Origin: an uncultured Saprospiraceae bacterium
GTDB taxonomy: Bacteria; Bacteroidota; Bacteroidia; Chitinophagales; Saprospiraceae
Direction of reading: 5' to 3'
NCBI GenBank assembly: GCA_937942465.1
Contig: CALDEO010000278.1
Span: 1-12,755 of the forward strand
Length of the DNA: 12,755 nucleotides
Numbering within the stretch: position 1 is the first letter of the stretch; each line of letters starts with the position of its first letter. Below are positions 5,054-12,212 of the stretch, in pieces. Under the pieces are notes generated by a model that saw nothing but the letters and a program-made list of their open reading frames with translations, was not told where the DNA came from and did not search any database. The translations under genes were made by a program, and so were the position numbers.

Positions 5054-6787
5054 ATGAGTGTTAAAACTTTAGATAAGAAACCCGCAGCAGCTGCTACCAG
5101 AACATTAACTGGAGCACAAGCAATATTAGAATGTTTGATTGCAGAGGGTTGTAAGACGGTATTCGGTTATCCTGGCGGTGCAATCATGCCTGTGTATGAT
5201 GCATTGTATGATTACAAGGATAAGCTCCAACATATCTTGACTCGTCATGAGCAGGGAGCAATACATGCAGCTCAAGGCTATGCTCGTATATTGAGACAAC
5301 CTGGTGTCTGTTTTGCAACATCAGGACCTGGCGCTGCGAATCTATTCACAGGTATCGGAGATGCCTTGATGGACTCGCTACCGCTTGTATGTGTCACTGG
5401 ACAAGTGTATGGCCATCTACTTGGGAGTGATGCATTCCAAGAGATGGATGTCATCGGATGTACAACTCCACTGACTAAGTGGAACTACCAGATCACAAAA
5501 GCCTCTGAGATACCTGAAGTAATGGCTAAGGCATTTTACGTGGCTAACTCAGGAAGACCTGGGCCAGTACTGATTGATATCACTAAAGATGCACAGTTTG
5601 AGTTATTTGAGTTTGCGTATTCGCAAAAGCCATTCATACGTAGTTACTTACCGACTCCAGTAGTCAACAATGATGCTATCGATGCAGCAGCAGCATTAAT
5701 CAATAGTGCTAAAAAACCAATGATCCTAGCAGGTCAAGGGATACATATTGCGAAAGCTCAAGAAGTTTTTAAATCATTCGTTGAGAAAGCTGGAATCCCT
5801 GTGGGTAGTACGATCCACGGTCTATCGGCTCTTGCCAATGAACATCCATTACATGTGGGTATGCTCGGCATGCACGGTAACTATGGACCGAATATGAAAA
5901 CCAACGCTTGTGATGTACTAATCGCAGTAGGAATGCGATTTGATGATCGGGTGACCGGTAATCTATCAAAATATGCCAAACAAGCTAAAGTCATACATAT
6001 AGAGATAGATCCATCTGAGATAGATAAGAATGTCAAGACAGATGTTGCAGTTTTAGCTGACGCAAAAGAAGCATTAGAAGCACTTTTGACGAAAGTCGAT
6101 AAAAAAGAATATCCTGAGTGGCTAGCAGAATTTCACGCTTGCGACAAAATGGAATACGATAAAGTAATCAAACGAGATCTCGACGATACCAACATGGATC
6201 ATATGACCATGGGACGCGTCATCAAAGAGGTATCAAAACAGACTGGTGGTAAAGCAATCGTAGCAACCGATGTCGGGCAGCACCAAATGGCTGCAGCAAG
6301 ATATTATGACTACAATGGCAAGGACCAATGGGTATCATCAGGTGGTGCCGGTACGATGGGCTACGGACTACCCGCAGCGATCGGAGCACAGTTTGCCGAT
6401 CCAGATAGAACCGTAATCTGTATCTGTGGAGATGGAGGATTCCAGATGACCCTACAAGAACTCGGCGTATGTACTCAATGGAATGTACCCGTCAAAATAC
6501 TCCTCCTAGATAACGAACACCTAGGGATGGTAAGACAATGGCAAGAGCTATTCTTTGAAAGAAGATACTCTGCCGTAGAATTACAAAACCCTGACTTTGT
6601 AAAGATCGCAGATGGTTTTGGAGTTAAAGGAAAGAAAGTCACTGATGCGAAAGATATCAATGCCGCTATCGCGGAAATGCTGGCCTATGACGGTGCTTAC
6701 CTTCTCCATGTAATGGTACAGAAAGAGGAGAATGTGTATCCGATGATATCGACAGGGAAGGCAGTTGATGAGATTGTTTTGGAGTAA
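5054..6787 (+). CDS. ilvB: Acetolactate synthase large (catalytic) subunit
   Basis: This thiamine-diphosphate enzyme condenses two pyruvates to acetolactate (valine, leucine) or pyruvate with 2-oxobutyrate to acetohydroxybutyrate (isoleucine). The 577 residues match biosynthetic AHAS catalytic subunits. The N-terminal TPP domain has [17 protein letters not shown] and the catalytic glutamate E66 in [15 protein letters not shown]. The central FAD-binding domain includes [12 protein letters not shown]. The C-terminal TPP-binding motif runs from GDGG (459-462) to N487, followed by [16 protein letters not shown] lies only three bases before the ATG, too close to be an ideal ribosome-binding site. 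Its regulatory subunit gene, normally adjacent, is displaced by 870 bases by the hairpin and four-helix-bundle insertion. Confidence 0.98.
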
Positions 6788-6798
6788 GAACTCCAAAA
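6777..6798 (+). repeat. 9-bp hairpin spanning the ilvB stop codon
   Basis: TTTTGGAGT (6777-6785) and ACTCCAAAA (6790-6798) pair perfectly around the loop AAGA. The left arm is the end of the ilvB reading frame and includes the first T of the TAA stop; the right arm is non-coding. It is followed at once by the first GGTTAATT linker of the hairpin array, so it occupies the position of a zeroth unit. There is no U-tract after it, so I do not call it a terminator. Confidence 0.7.
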
Positions 6799-6872
6799 GG
6801 GTTAATTGTGCCGATACTCGGCACGGTTAGTTTCGCTGGCGCAAGGTTAGTTGCTTCTTCGATGCGGTTATT
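6799..6872 (+). repeat. Left hairpin array (GGTTA orientation) before the four-helix-bundle gene
   Basis: Three hairpin units are separated by 8-base linkers. Linker GGTTAATT (6800-6807) is followed by GTGCCGA-TAC-TCGGCAC (6808-6824), a perfect 7-bp stem. Linker GGTTAGTT (6825-6832) is followed by an imperfect TTCGC/GCGCAA stem (about 6832-6844). Linker GGTTAGTT (6845-6852) is followed by GCTTC-TTC-GATGC (6853-6865), with one T-T mismatch. A shortened GGTTATT (6866-6872) follows, and the pattern then decays before the next gene. The linker sequence is kept while the stem sequence changes, so base-pairing rather than sequence seems to be conserved. Confidence 0.85.
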
Positions 6873-6930
6873 CCTAGTGACGACCTACTTCGTGCTCTAA
6901 TTAGTTGGGATGAATATAAATCAATAAAAA

Positions 6931-7311
6931 ATGGGTGAGTTGAAAAGATTTAGTTTTGAGAATTTAGATGTTTGGAAAGCAGCAATGTCACTTGCAAAAT
7001 CTATTTATACAACAACTAAAACATGGCCTAAAGAGGAAATGTATGGATTAACATCACAAGTAAGAAGAGCCTGCACTTCCATCTCACTCAATATAGCAGA
7101 AGGAAGTGGTAAGTACTCATTACTGGAGCAAGCCAAGTTTACGAATATTGCTTACTGTAGTTGCCTAGAAACAATAAACGTATTGATCCTAGCCAAAGAC
7201 CTCGAAATGATAAATGAAGAAACTTACATTAGACTAAGAAAGGATTGTGAAATAATTGCACCCAAATTAGTCAACTTAAGAAATAGTCAATTGAAAAGAC
7301 ATAAGAAGTAG
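6931..7311 (+). CDS. Four-helix-bundle protein of the 23S rRNA intervening-sequence family
   Basis: The 126-residue protein carries the family pattern: FENLDVWKAAMSLAKSIY near 9-26, then W-P-K-E-E-MYGLTSQVRRA near 32-47, then SISLNIAEGSGK near 50-61, then a helix with an E-x4-A-K segment and a basic tail. Relatives are encoded in 23S rRNA intervening sequences and scattered through Bacteroidota genomes. The Avd accessory protein of diversity-generating retroelements has the same fold, and solved members form pentamers. The cellular role is unknown. No reverse transcriptase or template/variable repeat is present here, so an Avd role is unlikely. An upstream in-frame ATG at 6910 is closed by a stop at 6925-6927, which fixes the start at 6931. 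The TAG stop leads directly into the next hairpin unit. The gene is an intruder in the ilv run. Confidence 0.93.
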   Translation: MGELKRFSFENLDVWKAAMSLAKSIYTTTKTWPKEEMYGLTSQVRRACTSISLNIAEGSGKYSLLEQAKFTNIAYCSCLETINVLILAKDLEMINEETYIRLRKDCEIIAPKLVNLRNSQLKRHKK

Positions 7312-7313
7312 TT

Positions 7314-7406
7314 TCGCTCTGCGAGGTTAAGTTTGCTTTGCAAGGTTAATTTCGCTTCGCGAGGTTAGTTGCCTTTGACGCTTTGGGTCGCTACGCGAGG
7401 TTAATT
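7314..7406 (+). repeat. Hairpin array after the four-helix-bundle gene, GGTTA orientation
   Basis: Successive units are TCGC-TCT-GCGA (7314-7324), linker GGTTAAGT (7325-7332), TTGC-TTT-GCAA (7333-7343), linker GGTTAATT (7344-7351), TCGC-TTC-GCGA (7352-7362), linker GGTTAGTT (7363-7370), a degenerate stretch (7371-7387), TCGC-TAC-GCGA (7388-7398) and linker GGTTAATT (7399-7406). The four clear stems are perfect 4-bp stems with pyrimidine-rich 3-base loops. The linker family is the same as before the gene, and the orientation is the same as the gene. Confidence 0.88.
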
Positions 7407-7418
7407 TTTGCATAGCAC

Positions 7419-7649
7419 AATTAACAACCTAGGGCAACAACCGTTTCAAAGAAACAACTAACCGTACTGAGTATCGGTACAAATAACCACACCGACAGGT
7501 GTAACTAACCGCATCAAAGATGCACATAACCGTGCCGATAGGAACAAATAACCGCACGCAAGTGCAAATAACCTCGCGAAAGCGAAATTAACCACACCGA
7601 CAGGTGTAATTAACCGCGACTTTGTCGCAAATAACCGCACCTCCGGTGC
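7419..7649 (-). repeat. Inverted hairpin array (TAACC orientation) leading to ilvN
   Basis: Ten clear units lie in the opposite orientation to the earlier arrays, with nine exact 8-base linkers of form AnnTAACC. Stems begin at 7443 (GTTTC/GAAAC), 7464 (7 bp, one wobble), 7489 (ACACC/GGTGT), 7511 (GCATC/GATGC), 7532 (GTGCC/GGAAC, one mismatch), 7554 (GCAC/GTGC, loop GCAA), 7574 (TCGC/GCGA, loop GAAA), 7594 (identical to 7489), 7616 (GCGAC/GTCGC) and 7637 (GCACC/GGTGC). The orientation switch is near 7407-7420, where GGTTAATT faces AATTAA around a small TGC-ATA-GCA stem. The last stem ends eight bases before the ilvN ATG, so the array forms the whole upstream region of that gene. Confidence 0.92.
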
Positions 7650-7657
7650 TATGACAA

Positions 7658-8191
7658 ATGGAATATACTATAACCGTATTCTCGGAAAATAAAACTGGCC
7701 TATTGAGCCGAATCGTAGGAGTCATAACTCGACGTCATATCAATATTGAATCCATAAATGCCTCTAAATCTACGATAGAAGGGATACATCGGTTTACTAT
7801 CGTTGTTAATCTCGATGAAGAATCAGTACGTAAACTGACACTACAAATAGACAAACAAGTAGATGTATTGAAAGCATATTATGATAGCAATGAGGATATC
7901 GTATATCAGGAGATTGCGTTGTATAAAGTAGCTCCTGAAGCATTCTTTGGTGGTGTAGCACTTGAAAAACTTATACGAGTACATAATGCTAGAGTCATTG
8001 CTATAGAGAAAGAATATATCGTCATCGAAAAGACGGGCTATCAAAGTGAAACAGAAGAACTACTCAATGTATTGAGACCATTCGGAGTATACGAGTTTGT
8101 CCGATCAGGAAGAGTAGCTATTATAAAAGAAATGGAACGACTAAACACATATTTACAAACGATTAAACTAGAACAACCAAGTTCTAACTAA
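7658..8191 (+). CDS. ilvN: Acetolactate synthase small (regulatory) subunit
   Basis: This subunit binds and activates the IlvB catalytic subunit and confers feedback inhibition, normally by valine. The N-terminal ACT domain begins MEYTITVFSENKTGLLSRIVGV and continues RRHINIESINAS. The C-terminal ALS small-subunit domain contains LEKLIRVHNARVIAIEKEYIVIEKTG and FGVYEFVRSGRVAI. At 177 residues it is the longer, IlvH-sized form with both domains. An earlier ATG at 7651 is out of frame, so 7658 is the start. ilvC follows 19 bases after the stop. The hairpin array ends eight bases upstream and could limit translation, which makes the ratio to IlvB an open question. Confidence 0.97.
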   Translation: MEYTITVFSENKTGLLSRIVGVITRRHINIESINASKSTIEGIHRFTIVVNLDEESVRKLTLQIDKQVDVLKAYYDSNEDIVYQEIALYKVAPEAFFGGVALEKLIRVHNARVIAIEKEYIVIEKTGYQSETEELLNVLRPFGVYEFVRSGRVAIIKEMERLNTYLQTIKLEQPSSN

Positions 8192-11033: not shown

Positions 11034-12212
11034 CTAATTTAACTTCTCTCTATACACTACTTCGCAGTCTTCTGACTTACCTGTTGTAGCGTAGAAGGTA
11101 ATCCATATCGATCCATTATTGTAGTAATCCAATAAAGCAAAACCATACTCGCCTGTGGCAAACTTGGTAATATCAAGGGATCCTACAACCCCGTTTTTAG
11201 AACCTGAGCCACTGACTATATAATTGATGTTATTTTGTTCGTGAAGTTGAAGTGTATGCTCATGTCCTGCAGCGACTATGGTGTTGCCATGTGCTTCTAC
11301 TGGTGGGATTATCGTGGAATAATAGTCTTTATATGGAGCACTCTTTGTATCCTGCTCTGACATTCTTGGTCTTACCCAGTTGACTATTGCCCCAGTCCCT
11401 AATAGAGGGATTTTTAGTTTTTTATTTAATGCAGTAAAAGGCATTAAATATGACTCCGCTGAATAAAAACCGCCGTGACTCCCCACCGTAAACATTGGAT
11501 GATGCATGGTCAACAATACTTGCTCAGAACTCAATGCTGCCATAGTATCTCTAAAGGCGGATACAAATTGAGCACGAGTCTTAATATCGCAATCATCATA
11601 GTTATAATCTTTTGGCTTGTCAGTCAAAAACCAATGGGAATCTATTGATATCAGTGAAATATGATCTGCTATCGTCATAACATCAATATTGCCACATCCA
11701 TTACTTGGTCTAAAGTAATCCGTAAACTCTTCGTTGTATTGGCTGAGGTAACTCTCAATATATTGTTCTTGCCTTGCTAGCCCTTCTCGTCCGTATGTAT
11801 ACCAGTCGTGATTACCTGGAACAAATGTAACATTACCTTCAAATGCTCTTACAGACTCCAATTGCACATCGAGCTTATGCTCTGCAAGTGGTCTATCTTT
11901 ATGGCCAATTGGCGGCATTCCTACAGGATAGATGTTATCTCCTAAGAACACTACATCTGTGTTATCATCTACCCTTTCATCTGTAGCTAAATACTCTTTA
12001 AGTTGCAACAAAGGTATGGTTGACTCCCCCTCCTTAGCCCCTCCTACATCACCAATAAGATATACAGAGTGCTTTATCCCACTAAGACTCGGTGACACTT
12101 GCTCTTGCCAGTTTTTGTGATCATTAGAAAGATATGTTTTAGAGCTTGCGCAAGAGCACATTCCTAGTACAAGAGTGAAAAATAAGTACTTTGTAAATTG
12201 TAACATATACAT
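11034..12212 (-). CDS. Purple-acid-phosphatase-like metallophosphoesterase, predicted lipoprotein
   Basis: This 392-residue protein has a short hydrophobic N-terminus (LFFTLVLGM) followed by C19-S-C21-A-S-S. This looks like a Bacteroidota lipoprotein signal peptide with C21 as the likely lipidated residue, which predicts an exported, membrane-anchored protein. The metallophosphoesterase motifs appear in order: GDVGG (D55), GDNIY (D92, Y95), GNHDW (N134, H135, D136), MHHP (H237, H238) and GHEH (H317, H319). The first motif is D-x-G rather than D-x-H, and the second includes a tyrosine. Both are marks of the purple/tartrate-resistant acid phosphatase group, which binds two metals and hydrolyses phosphomonoesters. 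The substrate cannot be told. The start may be M1 or M3. It is convergent with ilvA and divergent from purU, so it is probably monocistronic and unrelated to the ilv genes. Confidence 0.9.
   Translation of the reverse strand: MYMLQFTKYLFFTLVLGMCSCASSKTYLSNDHKNWQEQVSPSLSGIKHSVYLIGDVGGAKEGESTIPLLQLKEYLATDERVDDNTDVVFLGDNIYPVGMPPIGHKDRPLAEHKLDVQLESVRAFEGNVTFVPGNHDWYTYGREGLARQEQYIESYLSQYNEEFTDYFRPSNGCGNIDVMTIADHISLISIDSHWFLTDKPKDYNYDDCDIKTRAQFVSAFRDTMAALSSEQVLLTMHHPMFTVGSHGGFYSAESYLMPFTALNKKLKIPLLGTGAIVNWVRPRMSEQDTKSAPYKDYYSTIIPPVEAHGNTIVAAGHEHTLQLHEQNNINYIVSGSGSKNGVVGSLDITKFATGEYGFALLDYYNNGSIWITFYATTGKSEDCEVVYREKLN

Follow-up and report, generated by a model that had tools for sequence, protein, structure and literature searches.

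An IVP gene, that is, a gene of the 23S_rRNA_IVP (S23, four-helix-bundle) family, lies between an ilvB-type and an ilvN-type gene of an uncultured Saprospiraceae bacterium, and we consider it probable that this gene and the repeats around it form a resident element, whose ends are mirror arrays that fold and have become overgrown. The element probably entered the ilvB-ilvN site before the three sampled species of its genus (g1) split. IVP genes (PF05635) are often flanked by degenerate 7–8 bp repeats in mirror orientation, and the window, by which we mean the whole 12,755-nucleotide stretch of DNA that was analyzed, contains one such case. It is contig C278 of a genome assembly (G000) of 316 contigs and 1.85 Mb that is 65% complete.

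Anatomy and history of the ilvB-ilvN site

The features of the site, read 5′ to 3′, are the following.

5054..6787 (+): upstream host gene of ilvB type from the list of open reading frames, recognized from its translation and presumably encoding the acetolactate synthase large subunit; the small-subunit gene follows
6800..6887 (+): 5′ array of four GGTTA units (starting at 6800, 6825, 6845, and 6866), from sequence reading and unit parsing
6931..7311 (+): IVP gene, 126 amino acids, PF05635 match with E 2.9e-34
7314..7420 (+): continuation of the array in GGTTA orientation on the 3′ side, beginning just past the IVP stop codon, from sequence and unit parsing
7399..7430 (no strand; turn near 7410-7425): orientation turning point, GGTTAATT-hairpin-ATTAACaACC, from sequence and units
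about 7420..7649 (−): inverted array, about ten AANTAACC units, where the hairpins are strongest, from sequence and unit parsing
7658..8191 (+): downstream host gene of ilvN type (acetolactate synthase small subunit), with PF10369 and ACT domains

An earlier note on this DNA had described about 18 hairpins joined by a near-invariant linker. Parsing from GGTTA and GGTTG seeds indeed returns 18 linker-plus-hairpin units, four of which precede the IVP gene and 14 of which carry the exact linker GGTTANTT; in the GGTTA orientation most loops comprise 3–4 nt and start with T, as the note had it. The first 5′ unit is a strong hairpin (GTGCCGA-TAC-TCGGCAC) and the other three are degenerate. The hairpins of the 3′ part in GGTTA orientation lie at 7314-7324, 7333-7343, 7352-7362, and 7388-7398, and the hairpin ACACCGACAGGTGT occurs twice within the inverted array (7489-7502 and 7594-7607). 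Compared with 200 dinucleotide shuffles, the region 7312-7660 is rich in perfect hairpins with stems of at least 4 and loops of 3–6 (12, against a shuffle mean of 4.7 and a maximum of 10) and in hairpins with stems of at least 5 (six, against a mean of 1.2 and a maximum of 5). The three hairpins in 6796-6930 compare with a shuffle mean of 1.5 and a maximum of 4, and the 5′ part is therefore unremarkable for hairpin number.

The stems, mostly 4–5 bp long, had been said to vary and yet to pair. In the 17 units with a spacer of 11–18 nt, the longest paired run averages 3.94 between a unit's own arms and 2.07 between arms of different units, and none of 5000 permutations reaches this level of cis pairing. 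This part of the claim stands, but the statement that almost all stems are fully complementary was too strong: runs of at least 4 bp occur in 11 of the 17 units in cis, against 7.4% in trans. The related units GTGCCGATACTCGGCAC and GTACCGATACTCAGTAC differ by a two-sided change (pair 3/15 is G-C in the one, A-T in the other) and also by a one-sided change that leaves pair 5/13 broken.

Complementary termini around an open reading frame, one mark of a 23S rRNA intervening sequence, are present in the window: the 5′ array and the inverted array form a duplex with a z-score of −6.1, reached by none of 100 shuffles, and the segment 6795-7660 folds as RNA with −266.8 kcal/mol (z −8.9 against 20 shuffles), but with 120-nt flanks the 5′:3′ complementarity has a z of 0.0, because the first 3′ units share the 5′ orientation and the signal needs the inverted part. 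Between halves of the array with the same orientation there is no such pairing (z −0.3). A second mark, location inside a 23S rRNA gene, is absent, the element lying between ilvB and ilvN. A search of the window against Rfam, rRNA families included, gave no match at the gathering threshold, in agreement with the earlier note, which had recognized no named repeat family.

The gene itself had rightly been assigned to an intervening-sequence-type protein. Its PF05635 match scores 117.9 bits against a cut-off of 33.8, its PDB relatives are 2gsc by single sequence and both 2gsc and 2rld by profile, and by its Pfam match the protein is not a Y1 transposase. PF05635 was present in 53 of the 60 genomes searched, G000 included. 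The function of the family is not known according to one report (PMC4990558). For the IVP gene at the site, pN is 0.29–0.31 and pS 0.64–0.76, so the protein appears to be under purifying selection, an estimate that is rough because pS is near saturation. The other two IVP genes of G000, on contigs C143 and C78 (loci L002 and L003), lie in segments of about 1.3 kb that are 84% identical and include neighboring sequence, as in a segmental duplication, with AT-rich degenerate repeats in the flanks. Elsewhere in the window, outside the array, 11034-12212 (−) encodes a protein that has a metallophosphoesterase domain (PF00149) and begins like a lipoprotein.

All three sampled genomes of genus g1 have an IVP gene at ilvB-ilvN. 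No IVP gene was found in the gap in 13 other genomes in which it is readable, all of other genera; the stretch between the two genes there measures 33–243 bp, some 24 bp of coding ends included. Judged by eye, the repeats at the site differ among the three g1 genomes, being degenerate GTTTAAG and TAAACC in G002, TAACCCG on the 3′ side in G001, and GGTTANTT with hairpins in G000, the only one of the three with hairpin units. The repeats seem, again by eye, to share a related core in which units were replaced. Given an IVP gene in three of three congeners and repeats that differ, the window copy looks inherited, not recently inserted, with mainly its ends changed. The ilvB-ilvN gap of G017 (L158) contains mirror octamer arrays without the gene.

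Mirror repeats around IVP genes

Two sets of loci were compared with control genes. The relatives' set comprised 29 loci from a PF05635 search, 80 further stretches, the window, and the two other IVP loci of G000; a 14-sequence profile served to locate the IVP genes, and 106 of 116 matches were kept after removal of duplicates and short flanks. The named GTDB set consisted of the best 80 of 589 confirmed IVP relatives, mostly Bacteroidota, of which five were dropped for short flanks to leave 75. Tandem repeats, defined by a TRF score of at least 40 and a distance of at most 250 bp from the gene, flank 79 of the 106 IVP genes in the relatives' set and 50 of 237 other genes at the same loci; they occur on both sides of 38 IVP genes and four control genes, and their commonest period around IVP is 7. 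The named set gives a similar picture (53/75 IVP genes against 25/116 controls, and both sides in 19 against 3). The excess persists when gaps of 80–400 bp are compared with gaps in both sets pooled (repeats in 97/156 against 51/198, Fisher p 5e-12).

The flanks of IVP genes also tend to be complementary. When the RNA-duplex energy of the 120-nt 5′ and 3′ flanks was compared with that of dinucleotide shuffles, z fell below −3 for 24 of 102 IVP loci of the relatives' set, for four of 118 controls (every second control gene), and for four of 102 mismatched loci. The corresponding counts in the named set are 25/74, 2/116, and 2/74 mismatched pairs, with median z-scores of −2.42, −0.23, and −0.02. 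Single loci mostly fall short of this threshold (78/102 relatives and 49/74 of the named set). By a weaker test, 7-mers are shared more in inverted than in direct orientation at 62/106 IVP loci and 112/237 controls.

The arrays follow a rule of orientation. The GC skew of the 5′ side minus that of the 3′ side is positive for 95/106 and 72/75 IVP genes in the two sets, compared with 132/237 and 63/116 controls. The 82 arrays on the 5′ side are poor in C (A.30, C.10, G.29, T.31) and the 107 on the 3′ side are poor in G (A.33, C.29, G.09, T.29). Because the ends mirror one another, the rule is the same on either strand, and C-poor strands face each other. A C-poor or G-poor array would hardly fold on itself, yet it would pair with the opposite array. 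The linkers GGTTANTT and AANTAACC obey the rule, and the window shows what characterizes the class: around the IVP gene, short repeats mirror each other, those on the 5′ side poor in C and those on the 3′ side poor in G. The units of the window measure 19–25 nt (one of 36) instead of 7–8 because of the hairpins. Both neighbors are on the same strand at 63/100 IVP loci and 109/199 controls, a weak operon bias, and at 125/171 loci in the two sets together, a figure that has no matching control.

The sense duplex is the more stable one in just 85 of 176 loci, and sense RNA is therefore not singled out; selection on sense RNA via G-U pairs was rejected, there being no strand bias. An enrichment of the heptamers for sense stop codons was likewise rejected (5′, 32/55 against 32.3 expected; 3′, 30/74 against 25.9); antisense stop codons are in mild excess in the 5′ heptamers (24 against 16.2).

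The earlier note had linked the gene to folding arrays. This link is real and wider than claimed, but the usual partner is a pair of mirror 7–8 bp arrays and not a hairpin array. As a general partner of IVP in relatives, where the note had proposed to look for them, hairpin arrays were rejected, with a hairpin excess of z>3 at 4/102 IVP loci and 2/120 control genes; the window scores 2.0 in this test, and it lies outside the top 14 in a scan of 222 loci for dense hairpins with stems of at least 5. The pattern GGTTANTT-N8-20-GGTTANTT occurs in 30 of 60 genomes and was rejected as a shared pattern, its reversed control being as common or commoner in many of them. Outside G000, the linker-pair matches among those listed seem to be chance matches or plain short-repeat arrays, and a search of 298 genomes with one window unit (up to three mismatches) found G000 and two apparent chance matches, in what looks by eye like coding sequence with no array. 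Linker hairpins between units, which the note had proposed to search for in related genomes, were found only in G000. A possible second case of linker and hairpin is the IVP locus L062 (G028), where TRF reports hairpin-rich-looking 31-bp and 132-bp repeats at 924-1061 and 1962-2210 (hairpin z 2.4).

The note would have taken the same arrays, found equally often without such a gene, as a refutation of the link, and this is the case in part. No IVP gene was found near a second GGTTA array of G000, on contig C175, which has the same linker; next to this array, at 1612-1690 and 1850-1910 of L004, lies another segment that is repeated and contains a palindrome (around tcgaggtatttacctcga). Nor was IVP found in any of 20 heptamer-array stretches of the genome G020, two array matches known to adjoin IVP having been left out; three of the 20 are mirror pairs around an IVP-less middle. 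These stretches (L282-L301) present one heptamer motif family at many sites, and in two of the mirror pairs, L289 and L290, the middle looks similar by eye, like that of gene-less derivatives. Four IVP-bearing genomes contain 11 arrays in 380 kb, four of them with period 6–9, with none in the 100 kb of G002; three IVP-less genomes contain none in 194 kb, and four further ones contain seven in 400 kb, none with period 6–9. These counts are suggestive of arrays confined to IVP-bearing genomes, in a sample too small for this.

IVP genes with their arrays as insertions

In other lineages, an IVP gene with its mirror arrays can, to judge from sequence comparison, be a discrete insertion of about 0.4–0.6 kb. 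G020 has three IVP genes whose proteins are 88–98% identical; at the DNA level, the copies share 86–96% identity across some 0.55 kb, between the outer edges of the arrays, and no relationship beyond them. Their left flanks have counterparts at six places in two congeners of G020, and no IVP gene was found at any of these, the right flanks being unmatched there; two of the six carry, by eye, mirror heptamer arrays of other units and no gene.

A tblastn search of a plasmid collection with IVP gave 27 records, and 19 of the 20 matches listed are cyanobacterial. In a repeat test on 14 of these 20 records, run without control genes, tandem repeats lie on at least one side of 13 IVP genes, and the flank duplex has z<−3 at seven loci. 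Mirror repeats are exemplified by AGTAGGG...CCCTACT in Nostoc edaphicum and AGGGTGT...ACACCCT in Calothrix brevissima; L322 breaks the mirror rule with AAAAGCT and AAAAGCC arrays in the same orientation. The architecture thus recurs in Bacteroidota and Cyanobacteriota. Three of the 14 units lie within CRISPR-cas operons (cas10|IVP|cmr3 and cas6|IVP|cas4), namely L326 of Picosynechococcus PCC 7003, L322 of Pseudanabaena galeata, and L328 of Anabaena sp. 90, and a 'four helix bundle protein' encoded in an operon of this type may be a mere passenger and no Cas accessory.

In Calothrix brevissima, two plasmids carry an IVP unit between an integrase gene and its neighbor; with 97% identity along the entire 3 kb stretch, they represent one event. 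The site has 32 matching records; among the 12 listed, nine match the outer flanks alone, in two pieces, and in the seven of these nine that were examined a spacing of 3 bp separates the two genes. Filled and empty sites could be paired by both flanks as follows; at each site, either state may be the older one.

L331/L354: flanks 99.3 and 98.8% identical, insert 421 bp
L332/L355: same site as L331/L354, insert 407 bp
L330/L361: flanks 90.2/91.4%, insert 419 bp
L327/L360: flanks 90.8/95.6%, insert 420 bp
L326/L357: flanks 82.8/94.4%, insert 430 bp, at the cas10|IVP|cmr3 locus; among Picosynechococcus laboratory strains, PCC 7003 is filled and PCC 7002 empty there

Inspection by eye shows a single GTAAT in the empty L331 site and one GTAAT at either edge of the insert in the filled one; TTCTA may be a direct repeat of the same kind at the L330 insert, and none was seen at the L327 and L326 inserts. 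The units of L331, L330, and L327 are 78–83% alike at different sites, and in a further record, L356, the gene at the L331 site is truncated. If the unit inserts as a whole in other lineages, as these comparisons suggest, the arrays would be the ends of the element. Mobility of the unit is supported by the copies in relatives, as distinct from the window copy. The earlier suggestion that the protein may spread the hairpins gains support in a modified form, as a spread of the gene plus arrays in other genomes (the G020 copies and the cyanobacterial filled and empty sites).

Possible origin and role of the folded ends

For the window element, we propose that the octamer GGTTANTT was kept as linker and that hairpins multiplied between linkers. 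The ends are complementary, and folding in silico can bring the element and its gene together in a single closed domain. Slippage and template switching in folded single strands would then copy arm onto arm, in hairpins and large arrays alike, and owing to this copying the arms would stay complementary as the sequence changes. The folded ends may set the insert apart in the ilv transcript, as the terminal stem does for an rRNA intervening sequence, which would be why an insertion between the two genes is tolerated; that duplex energy has no strand bias counts against selection on sense RNA in this step. Least surely, the IVP protein may bind the folded ends and be needed for the spread or upkeep of the element. 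The earlier note had argued from the paired stems to selection or some generating process on folded single strands, RNA or DNA. The variable yet paired stems agree with this, but selection on sense RNA is not favored over copying at the DNA level (85/176 loci).

The hairpins and the protein might both be functionless, the array arising from quasipalindrome correction and slippage alone. Quasipalindrome correction is the mechanism on which such an account would draw, and the account overlaps with the arm copying proposed above. It accommodates variable but paired stems and the concerted replacement of arms, and duplication of units is visible in the window array; we nevertheless doubt it, as the protein appears to be under purifying selection and the architecture recurs in two phyla. 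The arrays might also be no more than 7–8 bp repeats that turn over by slippage in many spacers, which IVP, with an unrelated protein, tolerates or prefers. IVP-less arrays are indeed common, and a word search of the accessible text of two papers on heptamer arrays of Xanthomonas, Nostoc, and Beggiatoaceae found no such gene (PMC4692102, PMC4679880). Such a relationship predicts neither the mirror orientation (95/106 and 72/75) nor arrays and gene traveling as one sharp-ended unit, and we judge it quite unlikely, a little more so than a functionless origin.

A different possibility, compatible with the element reading, is that the ilv transcript depends on a folded domain for processing, decoupling of ilvB and ilvN, or stability, and that the repeats are maintained for this reason, with the protein as a co-factor or irrelevant. 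The stable fold of 6795-7660 (z −8.9) and the pairing of hairpins in cis speak for it, as does the intervening sequence in Coxiella rRNA, which has an S23 ORF and a 28-bp stem and is excised by RNase III (PMC4990558). The sense and antisense duplexes are, however, equally stable across 176 loci, and two congeners are, by eye, without hairpin units at ilvB-ilvN, so that we rate this possibility, too, as rather unlikely. A system of REP/RAYT or CRISPR type, to which arrayed short hairpins with constant and variable parts might point, is very improbable: Rfam gave no match, the constant part is an 8-nt linker and not a palindromic repeat, and no Y1 transposase was noticed among the window ORFs on reading. 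REP/BIME systems consist of a RAYT protein gene flanked by its own repeats, plus dispersed repeats without the gene. The logic of gene plus repeats is possibly alike in the window, but IVP is not a Y1 transposase and the repeat anatomy differs.

Among known systems, the 23S rRNA intervening sequence of Coxiella burnetii comes closest as a worked case of an S23 ORF within a stem, here of 28 bp, that RNase III cuts out (PMC4990558). It resembles the window element in the protein family by name, in an ORF within stem-forming ends, and in being an insert in a host transcript, but it lies in rRNA and has one 28-bp inverted repeat, whereas the window element lies between protein genes, has repeated degenerate units with hairpins, and is known from sequence. 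The heptamer repeats of Xanthomonas and Nostoc are described, in the accessible text, as 7-bp units that are mainly intergenic (PMC4692102), as are TAACTGA repeats (PMC4679880); two Xanthomonas genomes contain 70 and 75 convergent pairs, and the Nostoc motif is reportedly seldom paired and absent from plasmids (PMC4692102). These arrays are like those around IVP in their 7-bp units and mostly intergenic location, and differ in that the accessible text does not describe them as ends of an element or yield an S23 or four-helix gene (PMC4692102, PMC4679880). For a heptamer stem that has side hairpins and exchanges its motifs, the closest worked case is P6b of the Nostoc tRNA-Leu group I intron, a stem of complementary 7-nt repeats in which one motif class replaces another in place and insertions give side stem-loops (PMC4476775). 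Unlike the window element, it belongs to a self-splicing intron and has no protein gene (PMC4476775). Among the open full-text literature matches listed (titles and abstract openings, with subscription journals and preprints outside the scope), none tied IVP/S23 genes to heptamer or mirror arrays; given this limited scope, the absence of a prior link is no proof of novelty.

Beyond the resident element itself, we can offer a broader reading only tentatively, and with less confidence. IVP genes might encode the protein of an unnamed class of minimal mobile elements, about 0.4–0.6 kb long with mirror 7–8 bp array ends. Heptamer arrays dispersed in cyanobacteria and Bacteroidota would be partly its gene-less relatives, 23S rRNA intervening sequences would be members that landed in rRNA, and the window array would be an end that evolved into a self-copying hairpin chain.

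Bacterial heptamer arrays have been described earlier, without an agreed cause. Their tie to IVP, together with filled and empty plasmid sites in culturable cyanobacteria, would allow direct tests of whether and by what mechanism IVP elements move and of the role of the protein, and the window offers a natural case of arms that still pair while their sequence changes.
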